The position numbers and the translations under genes were made by a program. Positions 1,181 through 56,403 of a stretch of 64,000 bases of DNA are shown here, in pieces (the stretch's first letter is position 1; each line of letters starts with the position of its first letter). This stretch comes from Apostichopus japonicus (Eukaryota; Echinodermata; Holothuroidea; Aspidochirotida; Stichopodidae): positions 28,268,501 through 28,332,500 of the forward strand of contig NC_092568.1 in assembly GCF_037975245.1 (NCBI RefSeq), read 5' to 3'. Below the pieces are notes generated by a model. It searched no databases, was not told the origin of the DNA, and worked only from the letters and a program-made list of their open reading frames with translations.

Positions 1181-2796
1181 ACTCCCAAAGAGTGCTTGTG
1201 AACACCATGAGAGATAACCTGCTATGCCCCATTTGTCTTGACCTGCTGGAAAATGCAAAAACACTTCCATGTCAACATGTGGTCTGCAAAACATGCTTAG
1301 AACAATGGGTGACAATGAAGGGTGAGCTGAGATGCCCCACCTGTAATACCAGACAAGAGGAACCAGTTGGTGGAGTCAATGGGTTACCTTCTAACTTTAT
1401 GTTGAACAATCTGGCAGCAGAGATAAGGAAACTAGACACACAGGATGAAACAGAGACAGGTATCTTTGAGGAGGAGGAGGAGGAGGAGGAGGAGGAGGAG
1501 GAGGAGGAGGAGGAGGACAAGGAGGATGAGAAGGAATCAGGGTCTGGCACCCCTCTAGCAGCAGCTTTGTCTCCGACAAATTCATGTGTAGACTTAACTT
1601 CCGGTAACACCGACTGGCAGAGTATTCCTGTGGCAGAGTCAAGTTACTTGGAAATACTGGGAGAGCAATTCAAGCTGAAGGGATCCAGTGTAAAGGTTAA
1701 GCTGCAGTTTTGTGAAGTAGAGGGCCAACCTATTCGAGGCAAATCCAGAGATGGTATTACAGCTGTTGTTGTACATCCGGACAAGGAGAGATTTACGATT
1801 CTAGACGTAGTCTTCAGGAAGAGGAGTGGAGATTTCTCAATCAGTTTTGCAGCAGAGCACATAGGAATACACTTAATTGTGGTAACCCTGAACGGAGAGT
1901 CAGTTGTTGGATCCCCAGCAAAAATTGTGGTACGACCAAACGGGATTATGGTTCGCACACTGAGCCTCAGTTTGTATGAACCCAAGGGAATTTCGGCCAC
2001 ACATGATGAAATTTATGTTACAGACCAAAGTGATAAGGTCTATGTACAAACAGATTGGCATGGTCGTTGGGATCGTTTTGGCATCGGCAAACCATACCAC
2101 AAAGAGGGTACATATATCGCACCCTTTGGTATCGCAAAATACAACGATAAGCTCTTCATCACAGATAGCTTCAACAGTTGCATCTACGTTTATATTCACA
2201 TGGCATGCACGAACAACTTTGGCAAACGAGTACTGGAGAGACCAACTGGAATAGCAGTGAGTAAAGATGGTATCATCTACGTTGCAGACTGCGCATCAAA
2301 TACTATTGAAGTATTTTGGCACAATTATTCCCACATGCATAGCATTGAGGTAAAGGGAAAGGGTATCCTCACACATCTTGCTCTAAACCAATCAGAGGAT
2401 AGAATTATAGTGGCAGACGAAAAGACTAGCGTTATCAAGATCATCGATCTTAACAGGGGAAAGATAGTCAACTTTATTGATACGAGGATCAGTCAAGCAC
2501 CGGCAACTCCTTTTGGTGTTGCATTAGATGATGAGGACAATATATATGTATCAGTGACTTTTGACCCATCAAAGTTGACCAAAAGAAACGAGACAGCTAG
2601 GAATGTCAGGCGAAAAGGAGCTGTAGTAACGTATAATTCGGATGGTTATTTCCTTGGTACGATCGGCGAAAAAGAATTAATAAATCCCAGTGGTATTTGC
2701 TATATCAATGATGATTACGATTCACCTCAACTCTTGGTTGTTGAAGGTGGTGATTATGAATCGCAGTTTAGTTGTGTAAAAGTATTCAGACTGTAA
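1181..2796 (+). CDS. gene A 3' exon: RING-filamin-NHL protein (TRIM-NHL-like E3 ubiquitin ligase)
   Basis: Last exon of a probable RING E3 ubiquitin ligase. From the Met at 1207 it encodes 529 aa. The RING-HC lies at residues 7-46 with spacing C-x2-C-x11-C-x-H-x2-C-x2-C-x12-C-x2-C. An acidic linker at 80-110 contains an uninterrupted Glu run encoded by a (GAG)n tract. A filamin/Ig-like repeat follows at about 155-243, and NHL propeller repeats run from about 255 to the end (PTGIAVSKDG, PFGVALDDEDNIYV). B-box and coiled coil, usual in TRIM2/3/71, are absent. The open frame reaches back to 988, but TCTGCAG at 1174-1180 is a good acceptor and gives phase 1 as in the paralogs, so I start the exon at 1181; upstream exons lie before the window. 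AATAAA overlaps the stop region. Substrates are unknown; in TRIM-NHL proteins the propeller binds RNA or proteins. Confidence 0.85.
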
Positions 2797-4755: not shown

Positions 4756-4944
4756 ACCAGTTGCAGCCTAGCCTTATATCAAGGAGACTGTGTTCACTCA
4801 GCCTATGTACGAATTACGAAGATCAAAAAATTGGAAATGGGCTTTGTACCTCATGCAATCAACTATACCGTGTGAATGCCAATTATAGCAGTACACCTAA
4901 CGAAAGCAACCCAAATCAATTGCAAACATTTACGATCACTGAAA
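4756..4944 (+). CDS. gene B exon 2: A20-type zinc finger
   Basis: The acceptor is ...caattgcag (to 4755) and the donor is gaaa|GTAAGC (4945); the exon is 63 codons long with phase 1 on both sides. It contains C-x4-C-x12-C-x2-C with CTNYEDQ after the second Cys and GLC before the third. This is close to the C-x4-C-x11-C-x2-C of A20/TNFAIP3 fingers, which bind ubiquitin or act in ubiquitin ligation. The tail is Asn/Ser/Thr-rich. The A20 assignment rests on Cys spacing, the aromatic residue after the second Cys, and three similar copies in this window. Confidence 0.6.
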
Positions 4945-5234: not shown

Positions 5235-5453
5235 ATGACTGTAACGTGCCTCCACCGTCTACACAAAATGAATGTCTGTGCTCTCAGCCAGGTTGTATCA
5301 ACTATGAAGACAAATCAAATGTTATGTCGTTTTGCACTCAGTGCTATGAGAATTATGAAAAGGTACTTGGCTGTCCTTCAGACACATCACGGTTCCATAG
5401 ATACGATAAAGACCGCACTGAAGCAGTCTCGTCAACCAATATGGCTATTCAAG
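5235..5453 (+). CDS. gene B exon 3: second A20-type zinc finger
   Basis: The acceptor is ttctattttag (to 5234) and the donor is caag|GTAGGA (5454); the exon is 73 codons, phase 1-1. Its finger is CSQPGC-x12-CTQC with INYEDK after the second Cys, paralogous to the exon at 4756. The downstream part (DTSRFHRYDKDRTEA) is found again as a decayed copy at 31533-31616. The exon can join either the 8465 exon or, by skipping, the RING exon at 9946 in frame. Confidence 0.6.
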
Positions 5454-8464: not shown

Positions 8465-8856
8465 GTGATGATGATTTTGAAATTGTTACAAGCAAAGTAT
8501 TAATACCAGAAGAAAGGGAAACTAGTATTAAAAGTGGTGCAATCACACTACATGAAAGAGAAGCTGGATCCCCGCAGAAGAAGGTCACGTGTGATTTAGA
8601 GAGAGGAAGAAACAGAACCTTTAGAAGTTCGAATACACTGGGCGATCTGAAGAATCCATCAAAGCCAAATTTAACCATGGTTAGTTCAACAAGCCCAAAG
8701 AATCAACCCTTTACAACATCTACCAGTCAACCAAATTCTTCTAGAGGAGCTGATTCAACGGAGGCATCTTTATTCGGTCACAACAAAGGGAGCAGTACTG
8801 GTAACAAGCTATATCAGAATGGTCAGTCTAGCAATCGATCATCTGCTATCATATGA
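8465..8856 (+). CDS. gene B exon 4: Ser/Thr/Asn-rich exon with alternative stop
   Basis: After a TTTTAACATCCCTACAG acceptor, 129 codons stay open (DDDFEIVTSKVLIPEERETS...) to TGA at 8854-8856. The entry phase 1 matches exon 3, forming Gly at the junction. An internal donor CTG|GTAACAAG (8801) would end the exon at 8800, again phase 1, and allow splicing to the RING exon at 9946. The sequence is hydrophilic and rich in Ser, Thr, Asn and basic residues, with no recognised domain; it sits where genes C and D carry their Ser/Thr-rich exons. There is no early ATG, so simple ORF calling misses it. Confidence 0.5.
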
Positions 8857-9945: not shown

Positions 9946-10655
9946 ATTCGCAAGGGGTGATCAATGCAATGAGGGATAGCTTGATTTGTCCTATTTGTCT
10001 TGACTTGCTTGAAAACGCAAAAACGCTTCCATGTCAACATGTGGTCTGTAAAGAATGCCTAGAACAATGGATGGCCAGTAAAGGTGAGTTGAGATGCCCC
10101 ACCTGTAATACCAGACAATCGAAACCAGAAAGTGGAGTCAACGGTTTACCTTCTAACTTCATGTTGAACAATCTAGCAGCAGAGATGAAGAAACTAGATC
10201 CACGGAAGGAAACTGATTTGACTGTCGTTGAAGAGGAGGAGAAAGTTCATGAGGAATCCCGCTCTACTTCAGTCGGTACAACTCTTACCAATGAACATAG
10301 TACGCATTCATATCCAGATGATGACGAATGGCAGCGGACACCTGTTGCCGATATGTCATTCTTGGAAATGTTGGGCACGAGAGTTGGCTATCGAAAAGGT
10401 TGTGCAATACAACTGAGAGTTCAGTTATGTAATGCAGAAGGACATCCCATTCGTGGGAGATCCTCTGATATAGTTCATTTTACTGTTTGTGACCCAATGA
10501 ATGAGGAAGTTGATGTTTCTAATGTGAGCCTTAATAAAGGAACTGGAGATATCATTATGAGTTTCATCCCGCAAAGAATTGGTGTACATATGGTCAATGC
10601 ATATCTAGCTGGAGAGGCCATTGTTGGCTCTCCTGCAAAAATTGTGGTCTATTGA
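9946..10655 (+). CDS. gene B RING-filamin exon, truncated before the NHL domain
   Basis: The acceptor aaccaacag precedes 9946, phase 1, and the codons around the junction (DSQ) match gene A. From the Met at 9969 it encodes 228 aa: an intact RING-HC with the same Cys/His spacing as gene A, an acidic linker without the long Glu run, and a complete filamin repeat ending SPAKIVVY followed by TGA (10653-10655). The NHL part is lost to the stop. The product would keep E3 activity but lack the propeller used for target recognition. It could be a regulatory short form or an early-stage pseudogene. Confidence 0.6.
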
Positions 10656-11520
10656 ACCTGGCAAATATATTTGGTATTAGATCATGTGGGATTAAGTCTA
10701 TCAAAAGGAGTTGCATTGCTAGGACTAGAGATATTCATCACAACTAACTTAACTTGGTAATAAAGACAAACTGGTCTTTCGAACACTGAGTGCAAGTTCT
10801 CCGGAACAAACTCACATGTTGGTAGTGACCTGATAAACCCATTTGGCATCACAGAGTACGCTGGGAGATTGTTTATAACAGATTAGAATAGCAAATGCGT
10901 ATATGTGTACGACAGCAAAGGACACCTGCATACATTTGGTAAGGGATGTATAAAAAAATCCAACTGGAATAGCTGTCAGTAAAAATGGCATAATTTACGT
11001 CGCCGATAGTTCATCAAACACCATAAAGGCATTCTCTTCGACCTTCTCGCTCTCTCGTAGCACTGACCTGAACTGACAGATGGGGCTGGAATGCTTTCCG
11101 TCATAACTAGCTTTGAATAAATCAGACAATAAATTTATAGTTGCTGATAACGGTGCTAACCTCATCAGAATTGTCGATCTCGATACGGGTAGGTTTAAAA
11201 TTGTCAAAACAAGGGTACAACAGGGCCCTGTCACACCTTTCGGTGTTGCAGTAGTTCAAGACGACAACATATTTGTTTCATTGACTTTTGATTCGTCTAG
11301 GCTCTCTCAGCACCAAGTGTTTCGAAATAATCAGACACGTAAAACAGGCGGTGCAATTAATATTTATGCTCCTAGTGGATATTATCTGGGAACAATTGGT
11401 TATCAAGATCTGGTACGACCCCGTGGTATTTGCTTTGTCAATGACCCGTCACCGCAGCTCTTGGCGGTTGACGCTGGAAACTCTGAACGGAATCCGTGTA
11501 TAAACATTTACAGAATTTAA
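10656..11520 (+). pseudogene. decayed NHL-repeat region of gene B
   Basis: Downstream of the stop, NHL-coding sequence is recognisable in pieces. NPFGITEYAGRLFITD is followed by an in-frame TAG (10884-10886), then a frameshift near 10950 around a run of A, then IAVSKNGIIYVADSSSN. A cleaner open segment runs from about 11113 to the TAA at 11518-11520, ending with the family's final blades (TPFGVAVVQDDNIFVSLTFD, YYLGTIGYQDLVRPRGICFV). It is a distinct, more diverged lineage than genes A, C and D. Confidence 0.8.
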
Positions 11521-11734: not shown

Positions 11735-12035
11735 GCGTGTGGTAGCCAATTGGCTAAGGCGTCGGACTCGTGATCCAAGGATTGCTGGTGCGATCCCTGC
11801 CTAATTCATTACGTTGTGTCCTTGCGCAATATGCTTAATCTCACTTGCCTCTCTCCACCCAGGTTTTAATGGGTACCTGTGAGGTAAGTTTTCATTGGGC
11901 ACAGTATATAACTGCTGCCCACTGGAGGGATTGTCCCTGTGACAGGTTATCATTGAACAGGGTAATATAACGTCTGTAAAGCGCTTTGAGACCTATCGCT
12001 GGTGTAAAGCGCTATATAAAATCAAATAGTAATAG
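11735..12035 (+). mobile_element. tRNA-derived SINE
   Basis: The head carries pol III promoter boxes at tRNA spacing: an A-box-like TAGCCAATTGG at 11743 and a B-box-like GGTGCGATCCC at 11787, 44 bases apart. The body ends in a tail with gtaaagcgctttgagacc and aaagcgctatataaaatc. The paralogous block has uninterrupted sequence at the same place (around 32100), so the insertion postdates the duplication. The tRNA-like head is diverged and is not a functional tRNA gene. Confidence 0.75.
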
Positions 12036-18942: not shown

Positions 18943-19021
18943 ATGTCAAGAAAATTGGGGAATAAAACCAGCCAGCCATCGTCTCCTTCTACTCCTACCG
19001 ATGACGTTGTCAGTTCAAACG
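18943..19021 (+). CDS. gene C exon 1 (start exon)
   Basis: ATG at 18943 opens 26 codons plus one base (MSRKLGNKTSQPSSPSTPTD...), followed by the donor AACG|GTAACT. It is homologous to the triplicated gene D first exon and less closely to gene B exon 1. The block that aligns with the myristoylation-like start of gene B (GNKTS) is internal here, behind MSRKL, so no N-myristoylation is expected. The exon ends in phase 1. Confidence 0.5.
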
Positions 19022-20999
19022 GTAACTTAAATCAATTCGTTCATGTATTGCTTAATAATGATAGACTAAAGGCTAGGCTTACAGAGAATCGGTAAAACCA
19101 TCCAGCCTTGCCTAGGCCTAGATGTCTGGATTACGCAGTTTAATATTAATTTAGGATGAGAGATATTCATTCGATCGTTCATGGCGACACTCTAGCTTAT
19201 TCACCCAATCATCGGTTCAATAAGCGTTGTATTGGTGTTTTTTTTTACCGGTTCGTCGGTTACATAAGCAATATACTGCATGGTGCTAATTTACCCAATC
19301 ATGTGTTAATTATATTCCTGATGCAATACCTATTTTAGAGATAAGGATCATGACCAAATATTAGCCAAACATTGCATGTAGACCGTTAGTACAATTCGGC
19401 CTCAACCACCTCAGGGCCACCCCCAACTAACTGCTTACAATTATGCTTCTGACAAAATATATTAAAATTTCTTTTGGTACACACTTTGGTCTTTTATATA
19501 ATACACCGAGACACAAACATAGTATGCTATAATCCGAACAATTAGCGCGGTTCAACTGTTTAGATGAGATACATAGAAAAGTCATAGATGTTTTCATTTA
19601 CACCAGTTGAGAATATATCAAATATTATGTTACGAACTTACGACTTTTGGACATAGAAGTAAGACACTTTTGTTGCTATATTATGAAATTATGTTTATTT
19701 TTGTTATTATGTTGGATATTGTAATATTATTTGTATGTATGCTTCCTGGTTTCCCAAAGGTGTTCCAGATTATGTGTATATTTTCAGTGACAATCAACAT
19801 GCTTGCTTTCAATACTTTATTCTTGGCACTCAGCCAAAATAGGTCTTTACGTTGTTTCTAACCAGTCTGACGGAGTGATCACTGCGTGAATTCATGATGA
19901 ATATATTCCACAAAACAGTGGAGAAAGACTTATTTGGGGCAACCTTTAATGGATTGAATCAGAGCACATACTGTACTAACTTAAAAAGGTTATTTTTCCC
20001 CAGATGAATCACTACTTTTTGACTGAAAGAGATTGTTATTTATGGTGGAGCTCTTGTTTTGTACCTGGTAGGGATATTACACAATCTAAACGGCTTAAAT
20101 GAGATCTAAAGGTTGAAGTATGATAGTGATTCTACCAATACATCACACGAACGGAGGGGTAACATGGAGTAACATTTTGATCGCTTCATTGTTTAAAGTA
20201 TTTAAGAATGAACACTTGACAGTTCATCCACAGGGTGGGTGAAAAATATGCTTAGAAAGGCCGTTTAATTCTAGATTCTACCATACATCATATTACAGTT
20301 CTGTATTACACTCAGACTTCAAAGCAGAGTGTTCATTCATGCACAAAATAAGGAAGACACATCTAGAGTACAACTGACACTTTGCTTGATTTTATTTCAC
20401 TGTCAACATATTGGAAGCTTTCTTAAAGCTGTAAGATGCATTCATCAGACACAACATGATTACGGTATAAGTCTAAGGGATAATGTGGTGACTTTCCGCA
20501 TACGGGAAGCGATTAACAAAAGACATTGAGCTTCTTTTGCAACCCATACAGTCCAACAAAAATCTGTTCTTTATACAAAGTTTCTAAAAACGATTTTGTA
20601 TACCTTTCCTGTTGCTTGAAAATAAGTTTCTTGTGGAAAGTAGCAAACGTCTTTTCAGAGTTCCATCCCGCTACGCGAAAGATTCTGTCACAGGGACTCA
20701 CTTGTTGTGCGCCAGAGAAACTGCAGCTGCCCGCGTATTGTGTGCTTTGTATTTGTCTGTGCATATTCAAGACTGGCACATCCTTTAGCCACCTTGATGT
20801 TTTAAGAGCTGAATGAGCCTATCCAAGTCAGAGTTACAAATACGTAAAATTATTTTATTATCAACCGCACAAGTTCTTGGAACCGAGCCTGCCAAAGTCA
20901 GGACTCTAACAAATTGTGGGCTTATATATACCTAGCCTATGAGCCGTGGTAATGTGATGCATATAAGCTTGTACCAACGCACTTACCAGTTAGGGTTCG

Positions 21000-21840
21000 T
21001 TTAGAGTTCTTACCTACTCTCAAGAGCAGCGTTTTCGTGGAATTGACAGCCTCTTTCTTTCTCTGAGTGATATTAACAGGAATTTACGATAGGATAGCAT
21101 TAGCATGACAACAAACGACCTTCCACTTTGTCAGACGGAATGAAGCACAATACGTACTGGAGCACAGCAAACAAATGACATTGCTCCACATGTGCTGTCA
21201 GACTATGGGAAAAGACTTCTGAGACGTCCGTTCACCTCAAGATCCAACTGTACAATGAAGCGATCAATGAAGCGATCAAAGATCGTTTAGAGTTCTTACC
21301 TACTCTCAAGAGCAGCGTTTTCGTGGAATTGACAGCCTCTTTCTTTCTCTGAGTGATATTAACAGGAATTTACGATAGGATAGCATTAGCATGACAACAA
21401 ACGACCTTCCACTTTGTCAGACGGAATGAAGCACAATACGTACTGGAGCACAGCAAACAAATGACATTGCTCCACATGTGCTGTCAGACTATGGGAAAAG
21501 ACTTCTGAGACGTCCGTTCACCTCAAGATCCAACTGTACAATGAAGCGATCAATGAAGCGATCAAAGATCGTTTAGAGTTCTTACCTACTCTCAAGAGCA
21601 GCGTTTTCGTGGAATTGACAGCCTCTTTCTTTCTCTGAGTGATATTAACAGGAATTTACGATAGGATAGCATTAGCATGACAACAAACGACCTTCCACTT
21701 TGTCAGACGGAATGAAGCACAATACGTACTGGAGCACAGCAAACAAATGACATTGCTCCACATGTGCTGTCAGACTATGGGAAAAGACTTCTGAGACGTC
21801 CGTTCACCTCAAGATCCAACTGTACAATGAAGCGATCAAA
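21000..21840. repeat. 286-bp direct tandem repeat, about three copies
   Basis: Near-identical units start at 21000, 21286 and 21572; the third runs to about 21840. Each unit ends with a smaller duplication of gatcaatgaagc. High identity implies recent expansion or a polymorphic copy number. The array lies in the first intron of gene C. Confidence 0.9.
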
Positions 21841-22544
21841 ATGTAACTCCATGTAATACAGCAGTATAGTGTGATATATGGTAGAATTTACAATTCACCT
21901 GTCCAGTCTGAGCAAAAACATTTCGTGTAGTAAATCATATCTTTGTATTAGAGCTCCAAGAACCATCTGTCCTTATATTTGTGAACTGTTTTTCCTTTTA
22001 AAAAGTCACTCCGGCTTTATCATATGAGAGCAGGACACTTCGCCCAAAAACCATTTCGCCCGACTGCCATTTCGCCAAACCTTACCATTTCGCCCAACCA
22101 GCCTGGTCATTTCGCCCAACCAGCCTGGTCATTTCGCCCAACCAGCCTGGTCATTTCGCCCAACCTTGATTAAATATGATTCTTCAAAAGAAAACGTTGG
22201 GGAATTGTTAACGTGTTAGGGGTTAGGTTTGATAGTAAACGTTCGAATATTAAGGAATAATTGAAACTTGAAGTCCTTTACTTAATATAACTTTAGTAAG
22301 GAAACGTTCGAGAATTTTTAACGTTACAGGATACGAACCGAATATTAAGGAATCTTGAGGATGGATTCAGGTTTATGGGGTTAGATTTGATAATAAACGT
22401 TCGGGAATTGTCAACGTTACGGGATACGAACCGAGCATAAGGAAACTTGAAGTCGTGGTTTAATTGATTACATATGTGATAACATATGTGGTTACATTGA
22501 TTAAATATAGTAGTTCAATATTACGGACGGGTTTTGTATCTATA

Positions 22545-22697
<153 letters not shown>

Positions 22698-22744
22698 ATT
22701 TAATAAGGAAACTTTCGGGAATTGTTAGTCAGTAGGATCGATCA

Positions 22745-23050
22745 GGTTATGTTATTCCACACCGATTCCCTTATGTTTGTATAATAATATAACTTCCATA
22801 TAATAATAATATAACTTCCAATAATATAACCCAAAATAAATGAAATTGAACTAATGAAATAGAAACGGTTATATTATTTAACACCGATTCCCTTATGTTT
22901 GTATAATAATGCAACTTCCATATAATATTAATATAACTTCCAATAATATAACCCAAAATAAATGAAATTGAACTAGTGAAATAGAAACGGTTATATTATT
23001 CCACACCGATTCCCCTTTGTTTGTATGATAATATAACTTCCATTGTATCA
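22745..23050. repeat. 122-bp tandem repeat, 2.5 copies
   Basis: Units begin near 22745, 22867 and 22989, each with a ggttat.ttatt start, accgattccc and cccaaaataaatgaaattgaac. They are internal to the foldback element. Confidence 0.8.
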
Positions 23051-23489
23051 GTAAACGCCTAAAGTAGTGTAATCCTCCCATATACCCGAAATAACTGCTC
23101 AGACTCCGATCGATATCGAGCGGACCTCACTTTATTTACCTATTACGAAGTAACCTAACCCAAAATAAATCAAATTGAACTAGTGGAAAAGAAAAAGTGA
23201 TATTATTCTGACTGAATATTAGTTAAAATAAGGTTGGGCGAAATGACCAACACAGTTGGGCGAAATGACCATGCTGGTTGGGCGAAATGACCAGGCTGGT
23301 TGGGCGAAATGACCAGGCTGGTTGAGCGAAATGGCAGTTGGGCGAAATGGTTGTTGGGCGAAGTGACTAGAAAGCTATCATATTTACTCATCCTTATTCA
23401 TTTATAGTCTCATCTAATCTAGTTTAATTTGCAAAATTGAAAGAATTTTCTCATGGTTGCCTTTTACTTCTCAGGACTATTAGTTTGCT

Positions 23490-23538
23490 ATGCCTGCCAT
23501 TGTTAAGAGTAGCAATAGCTATGAAGTTTCTTCAACGT
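23490..23538 (+). CDS. possible alternative first exon of gene C
   Basis: ATG at 23490 gives MPAIVKSSNSYEVSST in the same frame as the A20 exon. A strong donor GTAAGTATT (23539) and the A20 exon acceptor (TTCTTCCAG) are only 30 bases apart and both phase 1. Whether that 30-base piece is removed or read through (it is open and a multiple of three), the frame is kept. It may be an alternative start or a chance extension. Confidence 0.25.
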
Positions 23539-23568
23539 GTAAGTATTGCAATTTTCAACTTCTTCCAG

Positions 23569-23793
23569 TTCACTACCAGTCAAGGTCATCGGTGGTGAGT
23601 AGCAGAGGAAGATGCTCTCAATCGTATTGTACCAATTATGAAGACCAAGGCAACTATTTGGGATTTTGTGAACAGTGTTGTAGACGGTACAGAAGGTACC
23701 ACTTGGATAACTCCGAAAGTCACGGCTCAGCAACTTCTAGCAGAAGCACTCAAAGAGGCCTCCACCTTGATTCATCTAGCAAGCCCTCACCAG
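23569..23793 (+). CDS. gene C exon 2: A20-type zinc finger
   Basis: The acceptor is CTTCTTCCAG (to 23568) and the donor is CACCAG|GTATTG (23794); the exon is 75 codons, phase 1-1. It contains CSQSYC-x12-CEQC with TNYEDQ after the second Cys and GFC before the third. This is a close paralog of the two gene B fingers and matches the A20/TNFAIP3 finger pattern, ubiquitin-binding in Rabex-5 and A20. A Ser/Arg-rich tail follows. Its position between exon 1 and the Ser-rich exon of gene C places a ubiquitin-binding module ahead of a RING E3. Confidence 0.6.
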
Positions 23794-24497
23794 GTATTGA
23801 ATCTGAAGTATTCAACCAAAATATTAGTTACTTTATAATTATATGTTGTTGAAGGCTTGCCCATGTGTATCCAAAAGGAATTTCAACCGGTTTTCTTAGA
23901 CAATGGTCATTAAATTCATGATAGATTGCATAACACTGGAAATAATTTCAAGTGGAACCATTGATGTCATCATAATAGTCAGTAGAATTGAAAGTTAGGC
24001 CCGGGTCTGTAGGATGTAAATGACCGATAGTGAGTTTAATTATTTGTTTTTGTTATTCACAACCTCACACAGTCGCATATGTAGATAAGATTTGAAATAT
24101 TGGATAAGGAAAAGTCTAAAAAAAGTAATGTGTTTGGTGTGATTTTATGGAAAAGATGCAAGACATTGACAGGAAACTTTTACAGTTTTCATTTTCAAGG
24201 GTGATTTTTCATACATTAAAGAATGTGTGGTTCTGTAATGTTCGTTATTCAATATTAGGTTTACAAACAGGAATTGATTCAAGTTTCCTGCAGTTTCTCC
24301 CATTCTTCGGAAAGAAAACAGTTTCCTCAGTAACAAAAATGAACACTTGTGAGAACGTACTACATAAAAGTTCGACTCTGTATCCAAAGTTATTTGGAAA
24401 GTTCATGAAGTACAATACCTCAATCAGATTGTGTCAGTCGTATGATCAATAGTTTTAACATTTTTAAAATATTGCATCCTCAACCATCTGACTACAG

Positions 24498-24779
24498 AGA
24501 GCCTGAGACTCAGCATACTAGACGCAGTCAGAAGATTTAGGCCTTCAAAAACTGCTGATTCGTCAAGTTCCTTTTCCACCAGCAATAAATCGCACGGCTT
24601 AAGTAATGTGAACAAACCAACTCCAAGTGCAAGTTCTAAAGGTACTGCAGGTGGTGGACATGGTTATTCCAGCAGTGGGAGTGTTACATCTAGTGATAGC
24701 CAACATAATGCATTGTGCCAGCAGAACGCTTACATGAGCAAACAGGAAAATGCAGGTGCACGACCCAAACAATACAAAG
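24498..24779 (+). CDS. gene C exon 3: Ser-rich linker exon
   Basis: The acceptor is ATCTGACTACAG and the donor is TACAAAG|GTATCG (24780); the exon is 94 codons, phase 1-1. It begins with the family motif SLRL and ends ENAGARPKQYK, both shared with the larger gene D exons at 45444 and 47385. The central TRP/TRT-rich stretch of gene D is absent. It is low-complexity and probably disordered. The flanking intron is also similar to the gene D flanks, for example the stretch around acattgacaggaaac upstream. Confidence 0.55.
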
Positions 24780-25678
24780 GTATCGATTTATATAATTCAA
24801 TGGTGATATAGTCTAAGTAAAAGCAAACCCAAACAATAAAAATGTATTGATTTATATTTAAGGGTAAATATAGTTAACGTAAAAGCAAACCCAAACATTT
24901 ATCTGTAGCTTATATGCGATAGTTATTTGCGATGGACAACTCTCCAAAATAGAAGAAAATCACGTTTAACTTTTGTGTGAATATTTGAGTGTTACTAGAC
25001 TTGTAAGGGGCTACCAGTTTGCCACTGTCTGATGTCATACTCCCACTATTTATGTAGGAACGTTATGGTATTGCTTATTCCCTCTGCAATGTTTTCACAA
25101 GTCCATCCCTAAAACAATCTATCACAGAGAAGTGGGCTATTTTTGATGCCATTAGAGATATTACCTGTTGACCCTGTAATTGCTCGGAGTGTGACAACGA
25201 ACAAGGGCCAAATGTGTATATCATTCAACACAGTATCAAGTCTCAAAAAAAATGTTTTAATCTCTTTGACTGAGTATACGCCGTTCAAAATTATTTTAGC
25301 ACATTCAGAAACTGAAAGTTGTCCTAATTATGTTGAACCATGGAGCTATAAACAGATGTTATAGCTCCAAGGTTGAACGTTAAAAGGTCTAACGCCAAAG
25401 AGCTTGAATTTCGACACTGAAGAAAATTGAAAATTGAATGTGATGATCATTGGATAAGGGTCTCAAATGAACTAGTGTGTAACTTTGCTGCTCTTTTCTG
25501 TATTAAACTATATATGTAAAACATAATTGAAAAAAAGGAAATGATTGTTTTAGTTTAAATAATTTAAATAATTGTTTGTTTTTCTTAGTTCTAGTCCTTT
25601 TTTCTTGACAGAATCAAGAACATTTTGTTCTCTCTTAGTATTTGCTTCATTATTTTCTGAACCTTTTATTGTTGACAG

Positions 25679-25732
25679 CAACGAGTAAATTCAAAACTAG
25701 TGAATCTTCCACCAAGAAATCTTCAAAGAAAG
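25679..25732 (+). CDS. gene C exon 4: Lys/Ser linker exon
   Basis: A 54-nt exon lies between acceptor TTGACAG and donor GAAAG|GTAAGT, phase 1-1, encoding TSKFKTSESSTKKSSKK. The same end (STKKTSKKG, donor GTAAGT) closes the fused gene D exon at 53730, supporting it as real coding sequence. It joins the RING exon to form a Gly codon. Confidence 0.5.
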
Positions 25733-26856
25733 GTAAGTAGAATATGTCCAACGAGAAGATTTTTCAATGAAATAAGATAGTAACAAAGTTAATAGTCAGT
25801 GTCTTAGTCAACCTTCTAATCTTGATGTCCACTACTAGTATGCAAGAGAAAGCCAGAGCCAGCTAAGGGAGGTAAAAAAGTTTGTAAATTGAATGTTGAC
25901 CTTTGCACCCATGGAGGGCAGGTAGAAATTTCTCTACTGCTCTGGCTTCTGTCAAAAACGAAAGGTGATTAAAACAACCTTGTTTTGGTTTTTGCACTTT
26001 TCATAACAGAATAATACCTCTTACTCTGATTATTAAGATGTGCTACTAGTGAAAATATTGCAGGTACTCCTAAAGTTGTGTGTAAACTACTGGTCACCTT
26101 TTCAATTGATATGATCAACTTTGTTTCAAAATCCAAAAAGGTTGTGAAGTGTTGAGAACGGTGATGCAAAAATATGAATGCTCTTCAGGACAATAGTGTA
26201 ATGATTGCAGGTACCCTAGCATTAAATTCACTAAACAACCACCTCCTGACAGCTTCCCTTAACTTCACTTATTGTAAATGATTTCATCATGCTGAACTCA
26301 AAGGTCATGGAATACTTTATTTGATGTTGGGTAAGAAATATTACATAAAATGGACAAATTTGTAAAACCCTTTGTAAACAGGTGTAGCTTTCTTCATCAT
26401 ATACACAATACATTTAGAAATTTATCTATCTGCAGTATTGTATGTGTTCAAAAGCTTAAAAGCGCTTCACACAAATGTAAATCAATAATTTTGCTCAAAG
26501 TAGAAACACTTCGGTGCTGTTGCAAATATTACAACAATCTTTGGGGAATAGAAAATGCTAAGGAATGTAGCAGCAAAAGCTTGCCTTTTCTGTGTGTTTT
26601 AATATTAACTTCTTATAATTCACTGTAAAAATTTATGTGGCTAACTTTTTACATTAAATGTTATAGGTAGACTACTGTAGGACTACCGATTGATAGGCAA
26701 ACATATGTCTTGAACAATAAAAGAAACGCACTGTTTGAAGTTGAAGCAAACGTTATTTCCATGTGCAATTATGGTGTTAATAAATCTTATTTGTTGATTT
26801 CTTTTATATCTTATCTCACTAACTCTCATTTTGTTTACGTACATTCCTTCCAAAAG

Positions 26857-28436
26857 GAGTGATTGTGAAAACCATGAGAGATAACCTGCTATGCCCCATT
26901 TGTCTTGACCTGCTGGAAAATGCAAAAACACTTCCATGTCAACATGTGGCCTGCAAAAAATGCTTAGAACCATGGGTGGCTAGTAAAGGTCAGCTGAGAT
27001 GCCCCACTTGTAATACCAGACAAAAGGAACCCGTTGGTGGAGTCCATGGGTTACCTTCTAACTTTATGATGAACAATCTGGCAGCTGAGATGAAGAAACT
27101 GGACACACAGGATGAAATAGAGACAGGTATCTTTGAGGAGGAGGAGGAGGAGGAGGAGGAGGAGGATGAGAAAGAATCAGGGTCTGGCGCCCCTGTAGCA
27201 GCAGCTTTGTCACCTATAAATTCATTTTTAGATTTTACTTTTGATTACACCAGCTGGCAGAGTATTCCAGTGGCTGAGACGAGTTACTTGGAAATACTGG
27301 GGAAACAATTCAAGGTGAAGGGATCCACAGCAAAACTGAAGTTGCAATTTTGTGATGTACAGGGCCAACCCATTCGAGGCAAATCCAGAGATGGTATTAC
27401 AGCTTTTGTAATACATCCGGACGGAGAGAAAATTCCGATTTTAGACGTAGCCTTTAGAAAGAGGACTGGAGATTACACAGTCAGTTTTGCAGCAGAGCAG
27501 ATAGGAACACATTCAGTTGAAGTAACCCTGAACGGGGAGTCAGTTGTTGGATCCCCATCAAAAATTGTGGTACGACCAAACGGGATTATGGATCGCACAC
27601 TGAGCCCCACTTTGCATGCACCCAAGGGAATTTTGGCCACACCTGATGAAATTTATGTCACAGACGAAAGTGACAAGGTCTATGTACAAACAGATTGGCA
27701 GGATGATTGGGATGGTTTTGGCATGGACAAGCCACACCACAAAGAGTTTACACAGATATCACCCTTTGGTATCGCAAAATGCAACGATAAGCTCCTCATC
27801 ACAGATAGCTACAACAATTGCATCTACGTTTATGTTCACATGGTATGCATGACCAACTTTGGGAAACGAGTAATGGAGCAACCAACTGGGATAGCAGTGA
27901 GTAAAGATGGAACAATCTACGTTGCAGACTGCGCATCAAATACTATTGACGTATTCCTGCCCAATTATTCCCACAAAAGAAGCATTGACGCCAAGGGGAA
28001 TGGTTCCCTCAAACATCTTGCCCTAAACCAATCAGAGGATAGAATTATAGTGGCAGACGACAAGACCAGCGTTATTAAGATCATCGATGTTAACAGCGAA
28101 AAGGTGGTTAAATTCATCAAGACGAGGATCAGTCAAGCACTGGCAACTCCTTTTGGTGTTGCATTAGATCATGAGGACAATATATATGTATCAGTGACAT
28201 TTGACCCATCAAAGTTGACCCCCAAAAAAGGAACAGCTAAGCATTTCAGGCGAAAAGGAGCTGTCATGGTATATAATTCAATTGGTTATTTCCTTGGTAC
28301 AATCGGCGAAAAAGAATTAATAAATCCCCGTGGTATTTGCCTTATTAATGATGATGACGATTCACCTCGACTCTTGGTTGTTGAAGGTGGTGATTCTGAA
28401 TCACAGTTTGGGTGTATAAAAGTATTCAGCCTGTAA
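26857..28436 (+). CDS. gene C 3' exon: RING-filamin-NHL protein (TRIM-NHL-like E3 ubiquitin ligase)
   Basis: The acceptor caaaag precedes GAGTGATTGTG, phase 1. From the Met at 26874 it encodes 520 aa with the gene A domain order: RING-HC (residues 7-46, all eight ligands present), acidic linker with a shorter Glu run, filamin repeat (about 145-235), and NHL propeller to the end. There are no stops or frameshifts, and all family motifs are intact (CPICLDLLENAKTL, SPSKIVVRPNG, PFGVALDHEDNIYV). A mature start at 26874 without upstream exons would also give a plausible protein; the upstream modules make the longer form likely. No B-box. Confidence 0.87.
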
Positions 28437-31400: not shown

Positions 31401-31532
31401 AGCTTAGCTAGGGTACATTAAAGTGCCGTGCATAATGTCATTACATGACTACACAAAGGGAAAAGTGTTTGACTAAACTGAATTGAGTAAAAAGTCCCGA
31501 ATATGAGTAAGGAAAATTTATCACATGGAAAA
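28437..31532. other. intergenic region after gene C, no gene seen
   Basis: 28437-29460 is similar to the 3' flank of gene D (56404-57560), so the duplicated unit extends about 1 kb past the stop codon. Beyond that I see only AT-rich sequence, a poly-G run near 29942 and short ORFs without support. Confidence 0.6.
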
Positions 31533-31943
31533 GGTACTTGCATGTCCTTATAATTCAGACACATCATCGTACCATAGATACGATCAAGACCGCACTGCAG
31601 TAGTCTAGTCAACCCAACAGATTTGTCGATCTCGATACGGGTAGGATTAAATTGTCAAAACAAGGGTACAGCAGAACCCTGCCACACCTTTCGGTGTTGC
31701 AGTAGATCAAAAAGACTGACATATTTATTTCATTGACTTTTGATTAAAACCAAGTGTTTGGAAATAATAACACACGCAATTAATATTCATGTTCCTAGTG
31801 GATATTATCTGGGAACAATTGGTGATCAAGATCTGGTACGAACCCGTGGTATTTGCATTGTCAATGACCCATCACCGCAGCTCTTGGTGGTTGAAGCTGG
31901 AAAATCTGAACAGAGTTCATGTATAAATATTTACAGAATTTAA
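31533..31943 (+). pseudogene. relic: A20-exon fragment joined to an NHL fragment
   Basis: 31533-31616 matches the second half of gene B exon 3 (tacttg..tgtcc, cagacacatca, ccatagatacgat.aagaccgcactg). It then continues directly into sequence matching gene B codons from about 11163 onward (tgtcgatctcgatacgggtagg). The terminal NHL blade is legible (YYLGTIGDQDLVRTRGIC...) to TAA at 31943. Several small indels are present. The intervening RING and filamin sequence is deleted. It is followed by block 2, as gene B is followed by block 1. Confidence 0.75.
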
Positions 31944-32682
31944 TTGAAGAGTATTGTGGTAGAAACATTATTGTAGGATCGTTTTCAGCAGGGAAGGCTT
32001 TTTGTTTTAAGAATGAGTGTTTCTGTCAGTTTGAGGAATCGTGGAAATAAGTATTCATACACATACAGCTGGTGGTTTTTCTTGCATATAATTCGGCGCA
32101 TGTATGTATGTTTTTTATCTTCTCTCATGTATAACATAAGAATTAACACTTTAGACCTAAGGAAGCACAGAGAGCACATGTCAACCGATTGTCTCCGGAT
32201 AGTGTCTGCCACTAAAGCCAACATAAACGTATTTTCTGTAAGACCTTTGACAGTTATCGTACATAAATAGTTGATAAACGTATTTGGCGTGACTATCGTA
32301 ATGTTTATGCAATTTTAAGAGTATAAACGATGTTTAAATGACGTAAGGCTAAGCCCGTGGTCATTATAATTGAGACAGCAGTTTGACCTGTCTCGCTTTC
32401 TCAGCCTTTCTTTATCTTAAAAGAAATAATTTGCAAGTTAATTAAACAATGATCTTACATCAATTATTCTTTGGGACGAATTTACTTCAATCGAAGCTTT
32501 AAAGTAAAATATCTGAGGACTAAGCTGGCCTAACTGCACAAACATCCTTTGTACAGTACTGTGTTCATCGTATAACCTGTCCTAGAAACAAGTCTGAGTA
32601 TTTGGGAAATTACGTTCTCCCAAGTAGAGGATAAATCCTTATAAGGTTACCTCTGTGACTGTATTCTAAGTTAAAGACGTTG

Positions 32683-35700: not shown

Positions 35701-38156
35701 GTCTTAATGTTATTTTCTGAAAGTTTGTAACATGATTCCTCAGGAACGATATATTGGGTTAATGCCATATGTGGTACACTGACAACCAATAGGCTGCATG
35801 TGCGGCTGGTTGCTCTGAGAAGTAATGGCATGCATAAAACATGCATACTAAATAATGTTAGAATCTTTAACTTAAGCGTTCAGAAGTTGACTACGACGTG
35901 TTTGCTTCCTTCCATATATGGTATGTTAATATATTGAGCAAGTGTAGAAGAGTTCTATGAATGAAATATTGGCATTAATATATTTTATATGGAGAAGGAC
36001 GGGATTTCAAGAAACACATTTTGACAAAGTTTTCATACATGCAAGGCACACTATTGCTCTAATTACCTGCACAATTTCTAGCATTCTTGATGGAGGTTGA
36101 GAATAACTTTAGTACATATTTTCCCATTTTTAATCACTGGTAATAGTAAATTAAACTATTGAGTGGGAGGGGCGGACTGACCAATATTTCTCTAACTTTG
36201 TCCCTTGTGATCCAAAAAGCCAACTAGAGCACCAGAGGTAGTGGAGTAAATATGAATCTATCCAAAATATCGAATTGAAAATAGAAGGAAAACCGGTGGC
36301 CAGTTTTAGTAACTTCGCGTAACAAATTTCACATTTGTTGATGACACGATCGAAGTGTCAATATTTTATCTCAAAAAAAAAATCGACTGTTTCATCTCAG
36401 ATTTGAGCTTTTCTTTTCTCAGACATTTGACTTTTGCTGGACAATTTTACTTTCTTTCTCGAAATTTCAACCTGTAGTACCGAAATTTCTGTTTTTATCT
36501 CACAATTTCTATACAAAAAGAAATTTTTTTAGACAGTGTTTTATCTCTAAATTTTGATTATTTTATTTTAAACGTTTCCAACTTTCCACCTTTTTTTCTG
36601 GATTTTTCCACTATTCAATCTCTTTTCTTTTATGTTGAGCTTTGGTTTTGCATCTCACTATTTCAACTATTTAATCTGAAGTAATCAACAACCTACAGTG
36701 TTATGATATGGAAATTGCAAATTATTCCTTGAAATTACAATGCTTAAAATACTATTTAATCTCCAAATACCACCTTTCCTTGATATTTAGGATTAGGATA
36801 GAAACAGTGGGGTAAAATAGAGTAGTGTATGGAATTAAGGTTCAAATAAACGATTGAATGAAATCGGTGTTTCACATATTTCAACTTTTGATAGAAATGT
36901 TCAGGTTTGAAACTTTCGACAGGTTTTTATGATTATGGAGGAGTGAAACAAGGATAAGAGGTCAAAGGTCGTTTCAGGAGGTAATAAGCTGAGAACGTGA
37001 AATATTTTTCAAACAGAATTTTCTTGCTGAAAATAGAATTGTGTGAATGTGATTTTATATCAAAGTTTGTAGCAATAATCAGTTGATAGTGGGTTAAAAG
37101 AATGGGCAAAGGTCAAAAGTCATATGAAGCTATTAGCAACCAAAGGAATAATGCTTCAAGCCTGAGCTCAGATGTTTACGAATAGTGACTCCAGAGTTCA
37201 TTTTAAGCATGGTACAGATAAAAACATGGAATTAGTTGGAGTAAATAGTATATTCTCTCAACAGTTTGTGTCCTCTCTGCTGATATATACTTGTTTCGTT
37301 GAGGTCAATTAAAGGATCACAATTTATCACAGTGTAGCCAAAGCTTTGCCGTAGAAAAGTTCAGCCAGAGGTTACACTGATCGTATGTTTATTCCGTAGT
37401 TAAATGGAAAGATTTTGCTGTGCAAATGGGTTTTAATCATTCTGTTTCTCTATTGATCTAAATTACATAAATCTACATTTTTCCTCCAAAGGATCGAGGC
37501 ATTTACCATTGAAGTTACTTCAAGTTAGTAAGGGGACAGCGTTGTTGCAAAAAGCAGTATCTCAGTTCTTTTCTCTCTTTATTTTCCTTTCATTTTTGTC
37601 ATGGTGTTTTTGAAATATGTCACTTGTTTGCGAAAGTCCATATAGCTACAACATCGTTCATATTCCGGTTCTTGTTTGTCTTTTCTTGAAGTACGCCATA
37701 TGTTGTCGACGAGCCAGCGACTTGGAAATACCCGTAGTTATGAATAGAAATACCAGCCAGGTTATGATTAACGTCATAAACACTTGCTGTACGTTGTTTG
37801 CACTTCCTGTTCCTATTCCTGTACTTAGACTGTACATTGTAGCATAAAAATGTATTTATATGTTTAGGTAGGCGCGGACTAAGTTGCCAATGTTGTCAGG
37901 AGTTCTGCACTCAGTTTAAACAACAAAGTTGTGCTCGTCAGATACTTGTAACTTTTTTTCAGAAACAACATTATATGCTTAGGCATAACTTCTGGATCAA
38001 GCCTCGGTTAGACACTGGTATCAAACGGATGACTGGTAACGGATACAACCAGGCTATAGTTCCGTGTCGTCTGGGCCTAATGTTAGTCTACTGTAGGCTA
38101 GCACAGTAGTAGTAGCACAAGTTAGTCCTAACTTCTTCCAGAAAGGGCTAAGCATA

Positions 38157-38223
38157 ATGTGGAATGAAAACAACCTTTCATCGTCTCTTTCCACTCCTCT
38201 AAATGACGGTGTCCGTTCAAACG
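38157..38223 (+). CDS. gene D first exon, copy 1
   Basis: ATG at 38157 (MWNENNLSSSLSTPLNDGVRSN) ends at donor AACG|GTAACT, 22 codons plus one base, phase 1. It aligns with gene C exon 1, but the gene C ATG position reads GGG here and translation would begin four codons later. Confidence 0.45.
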
Positions 38224-39693: not shown

Positions 39694-39760
39694 ATGTGGA
39701 ATGAAAACAACCTTTCATCGTCTCTTTCCACTCCTCTAAATGACGGTGTCCGTTCAAACG
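39694..39760 (+). CDS. gene D first exon, copy 2
   Basis: Identical to copy 1 as far as I can see, in the second 1537-bp unit with its own copy of the upstream region. It could serve as an alternative promoter and first exon. Confidence 0.45.
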
Positions 39761-41230: not shown

Positions 41231-41297
41231 ATGTGGAATGAAAACAACCTTTCATCGTCTCTTTCCACTCCTCTAAATGACGGTGTCCGTTCAAACG
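41231..41297 (+). CDS. gene D first exon, copy 3
   Basis: Third copy, closest to the downstream exons, in the truncated third unit. Same ATG, codons and phase-1 donor. Confidence 0.45.
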
Positions 41298-45443: not shown

Positions 45444-46004
45444 AGAGCCGGAGACTTAGCAGAGACTTAAACAACATATTGAGGCCTTCAACAACTGCAG
45501 ATAGTTTCAGTGTGGATCTTCTCAGCTCATACAGCACCTCACAGAGGCCTAAACATGACGGTATCAGTGCTGGACCAAGAACCACTGGCACTTCTTACAG
45601 CGGACCCACTTCTACCTCTTCCATCAGGACCACGTTAACCACTTCTTCTAGACCCACTCTTACCTCTTCTACCAGAACCACTGTTACCCCTGTCACTAAA
45701 CCAACTGGTGCCCATACGACTAGACCCACTGGAGCCCCTTACACCAGAACCGCTGCCATGTCTGCTTACACCAAAGCTGCTGTTTCATATCGTTTGTCTT
45801 CCATCATGAATACATTGGACAGCTTAATTAATGTGAACAAACCAACTCCAAGTGCACGATCAAAAGGTATTGCAGGTGATGAATATTGTTATTCCAGCAG
45901 TGGAAGTGTTGCAACTAGTGATAGCCATCACAATGTAACGTGCAAGCTGGAAGATTACAAGAGTTATAAGGAAAATGCTGGTGCACGACCAAAACAATAC
46001 AAAG
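45444..46004 (+). CDS. gene D Thr/Ser-rich exon T1
   Basis: The acceptor is CTGCCTACAG (to 45443) and the donor is CAAAG|GTATTG (46005); the exon is 561 nt, 187 codons, phase 1-1. It encodes a Thr/Ser/Pro/Arg-rich low-complexity region of short repeats (TRPTLTSSTRTTVT, TRPTGAPYTRTAA) between the family start SRRLSRDL and end ENAGARPKQYK. It is likely extended or disordered and could be O-glycosylated or phosphorylated. It is homologous to the shorter gene C exon 3. Confidence 0.55.
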
Positions 46005-49238: not shown

Positions 49239-49256
49239 ATAATCAATATTAATTTA

Positions 49257-53337: not shown

Positions 53338-53730
53338 AGAGCCAGAGACTCAGCAAGGACACACACAATGGATGTAGGCATACAACAACTGCAGATAGGT
53401 TCAATGTGGATCTTCTCAGCTCACACAGCAGCTCACAATGGCCTACACATGTCGGTATCAGTTCTGGATCAAGAACCACTGGCACTTCTTACAGCGGACC
53501 CCCTTTTAACGATGATCTGGCCGAGTTGCATTATGAAGTTGGAGCAACTGTGCTAAGACATCGAGAGGTTCTGGGTTCGATACCTTGCCAAGGCAAGCCA
53601 AAGGTCCATATGGATAGTGCAGTGAAACCAAAGGAGTCCACTGCCAGAAACACATCTAGTGCAAGTGTTTCAATTTTACCAGGTTGTAAACCAAGTGCAA
53701 CTTCTTCTACCAAGAAGACCTCAAAGAAAG
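53338..53730 (+). CDS. gene D fused exon: Ser/Thr-rich start, tRNA-like insert, Lys linker end
   Basis: The acceptor is TCTGTCTACAG and the donor is AGAAAG|GTAAGT (53731); the exon is 131 codons, phase 1-1, open throughout. The first 60 codons match the start of T1 (TADRFNVDLLSSHSSSQ, TTGTSYSGP). The last part matches the separate linker exon of gene C (STKKTSKKG). Between them lies a segment with tRNA promoter-like boxes. It appears to be two ancestral exons merged through a retroposed tRNA-like piece. Confidence 0.55.
53500..53600 (+). repeat. exonised tRNA-like (SINE head) fragment
   Basis: A-box-like TGGCCGAGTTGC at 53518 and B-box-like GGTTCGATACC at 53574, 56 bases apart, fit a Leu/Ser-type tRNA with a long variable arm. 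The fragment is absent from the homologous T1 and T2 exons and is read in frame here (FNDDLAELHYEVGA...). Confidence 0.5.
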
Positions 53731-54847: not shown

Positions 54848-56403
54848 GAGTGATTGTGAAAACCATGAGAGATAACCTGCTATGCCCCATTTGTCTTGAC
54901 CTGCTGGAAAATGCAAAAACCCTTTCATGTCAACATGTGGTCTGCAAAGAATGCCTAGAACAATGGGTGGCAAGTAGAGGTGAGCTGAGATGCCCCACGT
55001 GTAATACCATACAAAAGAAACCATTTGGTGGAGTCAATGGGTTACCTTCTAACTTTATGTTGAACAATCTAGCAGCAGAGATGAAGAAACTAGACACACA
55101 CGAAACAGAGACAGGTATATTCGAGGAGTGGGAGGAGGAGGAAGAAGTGTCTGGCACCCTTCTAGCAGCAGCTTTGTCTACTACAGATTCAGTTGTACAT
55201 TTTACTTATGGTAACACCAGCTGGAAGAATATTCCTGTGGCTGGGACAAGTTTCTTGGAGATACTGGGAAACCAATGCAAGGTAAAGGGATCCACTGTAA
55301 AGCTTAAGCTGCAATTTTGTAATGTACATGGCCAACCCATTCGAGGCAAATCCAGTGATGGTATTAAAGCTGTTGTTGTACATCCTGACGGAGAAAACAT
55401 TTCGATTTTAGACGTACTCTTCAGGAAGAGGACTGGAGATTTTACAGTCAGTTTTGAAGCAGAGCAGATAGGAATCCATTTAGCTGAGGTAACCATGAAA
55501 GGAGAGTCAGTTGTTGGATCCCCATTAAAAATTGTGGTACGACCAAACGTGATAATGGCTCGCACACTTTGGCCCATTTGGCATGCACCCAATGGAATTT
55601 TGGCCACATCTTCCTACGTTTATGTCACAGACAAAAGTGGCAAGGTCTATATACAACAATGTTGGCATATTGATGGGTATTATGTCGGCGCGGACAAACC
55701 AGACCACAAAGAGGGTATATATATATCACCCTTTGGTATCGCAAAATGCAACGATAAGCTCTTCATCACAGATAGCTACAACAGTTGCGTCTACGTTTAT
55801 GTTCATATGGCATGCACGAACAACTTTGGCAAACGAATACTAGAGAAACCAACTGGGATAGCAGTGAGTAATGATGGTACCATCTACATTGCAGACAGCG
55901 ACGCAAATATTATTGACGTATTCCTGCCTAATTATTCCCACAAAGGAAGCATTGACGTCAAGGGGAAGGGTTCCCTGAAACATCTTGCTCTAAACCAATC
56001 AGAGGATAGAATTATAGTGGCAGACGACAAGACCAACGTTATCAAGATCATCGATATTAAAAGGAAAAAGATGGTCAAATCCATCAAGACTAGGATCAGT
56101 CGAACACCGGCAAATCCTTTTGGTGTTGCATTGGATGATGAGGACAACATATATGTATCAGTGACATTTGACCCATCAAAGTTGACCAAAAGAAGAGAGA
56201 CAGCTAGGAATGTCAGGCGAAAAGGAGCTGTCATTGTGTATAATTCAGATGGTTATTTTCTTGGTACGATCGGCGAAAAAGAATTAATAAATCCCCGTGG
56301 TATTTGCTTTATCAATGAGCATGACACTTCACCTCAATTATTGGTTGTTGATGGTTCTGATTCTGAATCACGGTATGGATGTATTAAAGTATTCAGACTG
56401 TAA
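54848..56403 (+). CDS. gene D 3' exon: RING-filamin-NHL protein (TRIM-NHL-like E3 ubiquitin ligase)
   Basis: The acceptor ccgcaag is followed by GAGTGATTGTG, phase 1, as in gene C. From the Met at 54865 it encodes 512 aa: a RING-HC with all eight ligands (LPC of the paralogs is LSC here, Cys kept), a short acidic linker (EEWEEEEE) in place of the long Glu run, a filamin repeat ending SPLKIVVRPN, and an NHL propeller to the end (PTGIAVSNDGTIYIAD, PFGVALDDEDNIYV). There are no frame disruptions. It is closest in sequence and flanks to gene C. No B-box or coiled coil. Confidence 0.87.

Follow-up and report, generated by a model that had tools for sequence, protein, structure and literature searches.

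An A20-like finger ahead of a RING-filamin-NHL module, repeated in a gene cluster of Apostichopus japonicus

Does a Cys4 zinc-finger exon that precedes a RING-filamin-NHL exon in the sea cucumber Apostichopus japonicus belong to the same polypeptide, and is that finger of the A20 type? The question is raised by gene C, which lies in a stretch of 64,000 nucleotides (the window, C8:28268501-28332500) of an assembly of 671.6 Mb in 35 contigs. We analysed this gene together with its surroundings, and 238.5 kb to the left of the window were also read. Gene C is quite probably a member of a local, recently duplicated family whose exons would place one or two A20-like fingers, a linker, a RING, a filamin domain and an NHL propeller in one polypeptide. 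The members are named here after their RING exons, which along the contig are U1 to U7 and, within the window, A, B, C and D (Table 1).

The initial annotation had joined five exons of gene C, all at phase 1, into an open frame of 739 codons, and the computed join reproduces this frame, which is followed by a stop codon. The exon borders are AG/GT, with exon 1 opening at the start codon and exon 5 closing at the stop. Scored against a generic consensus, the donors rank 1, 12, 41 and 43 of 540 and the acceptors 20, 30, 50 and 85 of 583, which suggests splice sites of moderate strength. Homologues of exon 1 are present in D, U1, U5 and U6; its ATG is missing from U1 and U6, where a Met stands four codons further on. 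The acceptor and donor positions of exon 2, which holds the finger, are conserved in U1, U5 and U6. Exon 2 might instead begin at 23490 and so take in another CxxC, a reading that was dropped since stops interrupt the corresponding frame in U1 and U5, although not in U6.

The joined architecture is better supported than the initial annotation could have known, because it is repeated across a cluster of ~0.37 Mb. The cluster holds 11 RING exons, ten of them preceded on their own strand by a single finger exon or a pair. A whole-genome search with the gene C finger, in which all 15 candidates were scored, returned 15 matches at E<=10, every one on the plus strand and within C8:27.96-28.30 Mb. 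The second finger type gave 17 matches, of which 12 fall in the cluster (two being remnant tails) and five elsewhere, while a DNA pattern for C-x-NYED matched 12 times in the genome, 11 of them in the cluster, against a single match for the reversed control pattern. The RING query gave at least 150 matches (150 of 331 candidates scored), its 12 rows from the cluster corresponding to the 11 exons. Neither finger type, the RING query nor the C-x-NYED pattern matched within C8:28140001-28230000, a stretch covered by these genome-wide searches only. Many of the TRIM-type RING matches (at least 150 in all) lie near one another, on C1, C9, C10 and C17, probably reflecting a large TRIM expansion.

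Fingers are single in C, U1, U5 and U6, double in A, B and U2-U4, and degenerate in U7. The four cysteines are intact in 11 of the 15 fingers and thus nine of the 11 units, all except U7 and D, keep at least one such finger. Seven RING exons are open (U1, U4, U6, U7, A, C and D), and a four-Cys finger occurs together with an open RING exon in five units (U1, U4, U6, A and C). Frame joins were computed for A, B, C, D, U1, U5 and U6; the open joined frames reach 932 codons in U1, 933 in U6 and 957 in A. In U1 and U6 one uninterrupted exon of 771 nt makes up the linker, in phase with both sides. The exons of U5 do not join: exon 2 is shifted by one base from the required phase and exon 5 contains five stops. 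In U1 and U5 a stop closes the frame ahead of the finger acceptor, so that the finger there requires an upstream exon. Exon order, phases, open frames, their repetition across the cluster and the identity of the RING, filamin and NHL parts are direct observations, and because the splice borders are kept, the joined frames open and the frame before the acceptor stopped, finger and RING exons very likely belong to one transcript. Splicing into a single mRNA is inferred, as is every biochemical step proposed below.

In the joined protein of gene C, Pfam reports RING at 1.7e-9, filamin at 3.6e-7 and NHL at 9.3e-12, all above the curated cut-off, as the initial annotation had anticipated. For A, B and D the filamin match is sub-threshold. 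A RING profile (query 7-93) aligned to residues 14-101 of the TRIM2 chain 8ams_C, extending past the RING itself. With a model of the filamin-NHL part (overall pLDDT 51.6, good only across most of the propeller), the top three Foldseek matches were LIN41 filamin-NHL structures, zebrafish LIN41 first, and the NHL matches comprised LIN41, TRIM2, TRIM3, Thin and Brat. No B-box appeared in the full Pfam list for gene C (15 families), among the best 25 of 30 and 31 Pfam families for A and D, or in a separate Pfam search of the 100 residues after the RING in A, C and D. The absence of a B-box is therefore borne out in Pfam for the gene C list and for the RING-filamin stretch of A, C and D. As regards the TRIM coiled coil, which the initial annotation took to be missing, a low-confidence AF2 model places one helix, at 67-85, between RING and filamin. 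A further RING-filamin-NHL relative, also without a B-box in Pfam, lies on the minus strand of C4:22305001-22309000 (194-1807 therein); no finger-like frame was noticed in the 2.2 kb upstream of it, and the genome-wide finger searches gave no match there. The RING of this C4 relative has a His at a usual Cys position (CPIH).

Identity of the zinc finger

The cluster fingers carry their four cysteines in the order C-x4-C-x12-C-x2-C, while A20 fingers follow C-x2-4-C-x11-C-x2-C. In the six frames of the window the signature C-x4-C-x-NYED-x7-C-x2-C occurs three times, against none in 100 first-order Markov windows, and the bare cysteine spacing three times, against a Markov mean of 0.08; both patterns were derived from these same finger exons.

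The A20-type reading is carried by profile comparison. A profile of eight cluster fingers, i.e., eight of the nine distinct sequences among the 11 four-Cys fingers (a one-residue variant in U5, two identical copies and the four degenerate fingers lie outside it), matched a profile of four solved A20 fingers at 81.9% (P 1.1e-5). Against a six-member A20 profile, which includes two fingers from this genome, the value was 80.3%, and none of 600 cysteine-preserving shuffles scored as high. The three fingers of the window alone reached 71.6% against the four solved fingers with hhalign (P 3.5e-5), with two of 400 cysteine-fixed shuffles equalling them.

A genomic relative bridges the two groups. 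The best match outside the cluster lies on C21 (E 0.007, 48% identity) and has the canonical x11 spacing; it aligns to the cluster profile at 93.6%, and the cluster fingers taken together with this bridge finger align to A20 at 90.0%. An OTU domain is found 4.8 kb upstream on the same strand, and in the A20 protein the OTU domain likewise comes first and the fingers follow. On C13 a second OTU domain stands 1.3 kb ahead of a finger recognised as A20 by Pfam. Around the bridge finger, at C21:4.07-4.16 Mb, the OTU domain is matched three times, always on one strand, and OTU-A20-like genes may form a small array there. Viral contigs scanned with the finger and RING-NHL profiles yielded no relative.

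Other results weigh against this identity. Taken singly, the fingers score far lower against A20 (17.4% for gene C, 45.5% for B1 and 71.1% for B2), whereas known A20 fingers, each left out in turn, reach 91-98%. The Pfam zf-A20 model is silent on the three finger exons of the window, whole or trimmed, and on the joined protein, for which the initial annotation had expected it; across the 671.6 Mb genome it recognises three places, none in the cluster. In PDB-wide searches, three-finger profiles ranked TNFAIP3 first without significance (E 0.82 and 1.3), and the eight-finger profile listed no A20 chain, a stretch of the TRIM2 RING leading at E 2.8. A hidden Markov model of four PDB A20 fingers, run over 1540 frames of the window, placed two finger exons first and sixth (E 0.38 and 2.8, non-significant), and the gene C finger was absent among the matches listed (E up to 11). 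The AF2 model of the finger is poor (pLDDT 50.6) and gave no Foldseek match. The C21 bridge finger alone reaches only 15.6% against A20, its PDB search lists no A20 chain and Pfam does not name it. There are also differences within the motif, namely the x12 instead of x11 spacing and an Asn at the first of two positions that follow the second Cys. In Rabex-5 two aromatic residues at this place contact ubiquitin. All 11 four-Cys fingers of the cluster have N-Y there, compared with Y-Y in Rabex-5, F-Y in ZFAND5 and H-F in TNFAIP3 finger 7, and the cluster fingers may therefore have an altered ubiquitin site or a different partner. On balance the A20-type identity appears supported at the level of profiles; of the annotated architecture, the joining of finger exons to RING exons is well supported, finger exons being present in ten of 11 RING units, and the A20 label stands in part only, upheld by profile-profile comparison and the OTU-adjacent relative and not by the Pfam model.

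Selection and alternative readings

Comparison of the C, B1 and B2 fingers gives proportions of synonymous differences (pS) of 0.83-0.96 and of non-synonymous differences (pN) of 0.34-0.42 (Fisher P 8e-5, 1.5e-3 and 2.9e-4), pointing to an old constraint at the protein level with synonymous sites nearly saturated. Six of the RING-filamin-NHL exons together have a ratio of non-synonymous to synonymous rates (dN/dS) of 0.67, below 1 with P 0.0002, or by domain 0.48 for the RING, 0.62 for filamin and 0.71 for NHL; this set leaves out U4, which is too distant, and the broken exons of U2, U3, U5 and B. For the 3' part of the gene C linker exon 3 compared with that of gene D, the ratio of non-synonymous to synonymous change is 0.94. 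Positive selection on the NHL part was considered and set aside, since only a blade-1 segment reached a dN/dS of 1.5-1.6, non-significantly.

Could the finger exons be separate small genes that happen to lie between B-box-less RING-filamin-NHL genes, the open join arising from shared phase only? The architecture is predicted from DNA, gene D has no detected finger exon, some splice sites are weak and U5 is out of frame, all of which such a reading would accommodate. It would, however, leave unexplained why in ten of 11 units the finger comes first and the RING after on the same strand, with linkers recognised between them in most, and why the 771-nt linker exon of U1 and U6 joins both sides in phase; moreover, a conserved start codon is missing from the finger exon itself, and stops interrupt the frame before its acceptor in U1 and U5. 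We consider separate genes highly improbable. It is also unlikely, if less so, that the finger is another Cys4 type (NZF/RanBP2-like, half a B-box or a new lineage-specific fold) that does not work like A20. The silence of Pfam zf-A20, a sub-threshold Pfam B-box match for one finger (E 0.023), the x12 spacing and the low score of the gene C finger on its own fit that view. Against it, the eight-finger profile that matches A20 at 82% reaches 4.9% with NZF and 0.7% each with RING and zinc knuckle, identities that were rejected as far below the A20 score, although these rival profiles are small (two, three and one sequences, respectively); there are four Cys ligands only, with no B-box-like His set, and a relative is linked to an OTU domain.

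The remaining alternative concerns function, namely that the cluster is mostly decaying and that, even if recent copies including gene C are expressed, their fingers are functionless relics. A zinc ligand has been lost in four of the 15 fingers, which are degenerate, and four of the 11 RING exons (U2, U3, U5 and B) are broken. Among recent copies of the finger exons the pooled pN/pS is 1.20 for the C type, 1.41 for B1 and 0.57 for B2, so that constraint is absent in two of the three types, with the qualification that counts are small and that some B2 copies include a few codons beyond the donor. This is countered by the constraint on the six paralogous RING-filamin-NHL exons and between the C, B1 and B2 finger types, and by the retention of a four-Cys finger with an open RING exon in U1, U4, U6, A and C. 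We regard general decay as rather doubtful, and prefer to read gene C as a member of a family joining A20-like fingers to RING, filamin and NHL.

Neighbouring genes and feature coordinates

The exons of gene C and of its neighbours in the window are collected in Table 1. The two A20-like exons of gene A lie with their linkers immediately outside the left edge of the window, at C8:28264570-28267674; the gene's own first exon was not found, and its 957-codon frame is counted from the first finger exon. In gene B two fingers, a Ser/Thr-rich stretch and RING-filamin join into one open frame that ends after filamin and has 484 or 491 codons according to the donor used. The NHL part of gene B behind the stop (10656-11520) is disrupted.

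The joined frame of gene D has 858 codons and includes no finger, and neither reading of the window nor the genome-wide finger search found an A20-like exon in this gene. At window positions 37314-41839 a unit of 1537 bp is present in three tandem copies with 99.5-99.8% identity, and every copy bears the gene D first exon. Pieces of Gypsy-type gag and pol (41885-44797) lie between this exon and the linker, in the interval that holds the finger exon in other units. A second copy of the gene D linker exon is found in halves (47711-47806 and 52453-52596), separated by a long interspersed element at 48111-52184 with a zinc-knuckle open reading frame and an endonuclease-reverse transcriptase open reading frame. 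A tRNA-derived short interspersed element (SINE), suspected by eye inside the gene D linker exon, is unsupported by Rfam.

Two stretches of gene C intron 1, 20997-21839 and 22036-23365, hold a set of three direct repeats spaced at 286 bp and an element whose inverted ends are GGTTGGGCGAAATGACC-like. The remnant at 31528-32065 (Table 1) is matched by another at C8:28031434-28031852; the two apparently go back to a single deletion derivative that was duplicated along with the sequence around it. At 11736-11808 a tRNA-like match at the Rfam threshold (29.1 bits) is perhaps a SINE; ARAGORN reports no tRNA.

Table 1 Coordinates of exons, domains and remnants in the window, and of the cluster RING exons on contig C8
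Feature	Position	Strand	Remarks
Gene A RING-filamin-NHL exon	1181..2796	+	
Gene B first A20-like finger exon	4756..4944	+	phase 1-1
Gene B second A20-like finger exon	5235..5453	+	phase 1-1
Gene B Ser/Thr-rich linker exon	8465..8800	+	alternative donor 8821
Gene B RING-filamin exon	9946..10655	+	stop at filamin end
Gene C exon 1	18943..19021	+	start codon, Ser-rich, phase-1 donor
Gene C exon 2, A20-like finger exon	23569..23793	+	225 nt, phase 1-1
Gene C Cys4 finger	23613-23678	+	within exon 2
Gene C exon 3, Ser-rich linker	24498..24779	+	phase 1-1
Gene C exon 4, short basic linker	25679..25732	+	phase 1-1
Gene C exon 5	26857..28436	+	RING, acidic stretch, filamin, NHL propeller
Gene C RING finger (C3HC4)	26892..27011	+	Pfam PF13923, protein residues 226-265
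Gene C filamin/Ig-like domain	27315..27560	+	Pfam PF00630, residues 367-448
Gene C NHL beta-propeller	27627..28433	+	limits approximate; Pfam PF01436, predicted strands, Foldseek
Remnant, second-type A20 exon tail adjoining NHL end	31528..32065	+	
Gene D first exon	41231..41297	+	last copy of a 1537-bp triplicate (earlier copies near 38157 and 39694)
Gene D linker exon	45444..46004	+	
Gene D linker exon	53338..53730	+	
Gene D RING-filamin-NHL exon	54848..56403	+	
RING exon U1	C8 27968203		
RING exon U2	C8 27980828		
RING exon U3	C8 27997461		
RING exon U4	C8 28009901		
RING exon U5	C8 28027027		
RING exon U6	C8 28240502		
RING exon U7	C8 28255851		
RING exon A	C8 28269692		
RING exon B	C8 28278457		
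RING exon C	C8 28295359		
RING exon D	C8 28323350		

Proposed function and relation to known ligases

With the RING nearest to TRIM2 and the filamin-NHL part nearest to LIN41/TRIM71, the natural reading is an E3 ligase that chooses its target through NHL, and the gene C protein would most likely be an intracellular E3 of the TRIM-NHL type. The proteins of this family would carry one or two A20-like Cys4 fingers and a Ser/Thr-rich linker that is probably disordered. The TRIM-type RING would recruit E2~ubiquitin, while the filamin-NHL part would select the target, whether a protein or an RNA-protein complex. On its flexible tether the A20-like finger could provide an extra contact, to ubiquitin, to the E2 or to a partner, and this contact might favour chain building or recruitment to complexes that are already ubiquitinated. 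Since the finger exon is symmetric at phase 1, it could be gained, doubled (as in A and B), lost (as in D) or skipped without breaking the frame. More speculatively, and improbably in our estimation, exon shuffling at phase 1 may have carried a finger exon of an OTU-A20 gene to the front of a RING-filamin-NHL gene that had no B-box, with tandem duplication later producing a small lineage-specific repertoire of ligases that would read ubiquitin through a divergent A20 finger, write it through the RING and vary in their NHL surfaces, as would be suited to innate immunity or RNA surveillance.

If transcripts exist, the family would represent a natural E3 with a candidate ubiquitin-reading finger, a RING writer and an NHL target module on one chain. 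The array, with its single, double, degenerate and absent fingers, would also provide a built-in comparison for testing the contribution of an A20-type finger to a ligase of the TRIM-NHL type, and it suggests that a TRIM-NHL protein can do without its B-box part and yet gain a new zinc module on a phase-1 exon.

The initial annotation knew of no TRIM family with this order of domains, and our search of the open-licence literature agrees: it found no description of an A20 finger joined with TRIM or NHL, and the titles and abstract parts of the best-ranked results of a broader literature search contain no A20 finger ahead of a RING-NHL. We take the A20-like-finger RING-filamin-NHL architecture to be real, and it appears to be undescribed. 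Its closest relatives by sequence and fold in the PDB are TRIM2, TRIM3 and TRIM71 (TRIM-NHL, subfamily C or class VII), which have the RING type, filamin and NHL in common with gene C. Gene C, which shows the RING, the filamin domain and the C-terminal NHL of this group, differs from them in having no match to the B-box of the TRIM/RBCC layout and in tethering a Cys4 finger and a Ser/Thr-rich linker ahead of the RING. NHLRC1/Malin is a RING-NHL E3 that lacks a B-box, as gene C does in Pfam. The accessible part of one account (PMC3503706) describes Malin as a short TRIM derivative with a RING and six NHL repeats and mentions neither a filamin domain nor an A20-like finger, whereas gene C has both.

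A20/TNFAIP3 and the other OTU-A20 proteins probably share the finger type, and the nearest genomic relative of the cluster finger lies downstream of an OTU domain; the cluster, however, has no OTU-domain match and carries RING-filamin-NHL instead. HOIL-1L and SHARPIN have NZF fingers and ligase roles, and Rabex-5, which has an A20 finger, reportedly undergoes autoubiquitination, to go by the title of a study. According to two papers (PMC5135002, PMC1832185), A20 ZnF4 binds mono- and K63-ubiquitin, ZnF7 binds Met1 chains and Rabex-5 uses an Asp58 patch, and in HOIL-1L/SHARPIN and Rabex-5 a ubiquitin-binding zinc finger and ligase function occur in one protein or complex. The finger or the ligase class is a different one in those cases and the NHL target module is absent. 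Reading and writing of ubiquitin in one protein is thus not new in principle, as HOIL-1L and Rabex-5 illustrate, and B-box-less TRIM derivatives are known as well; the new part is the A20-like finger placed in front on a mobile phase-1 exon, in ten of the 11 units.

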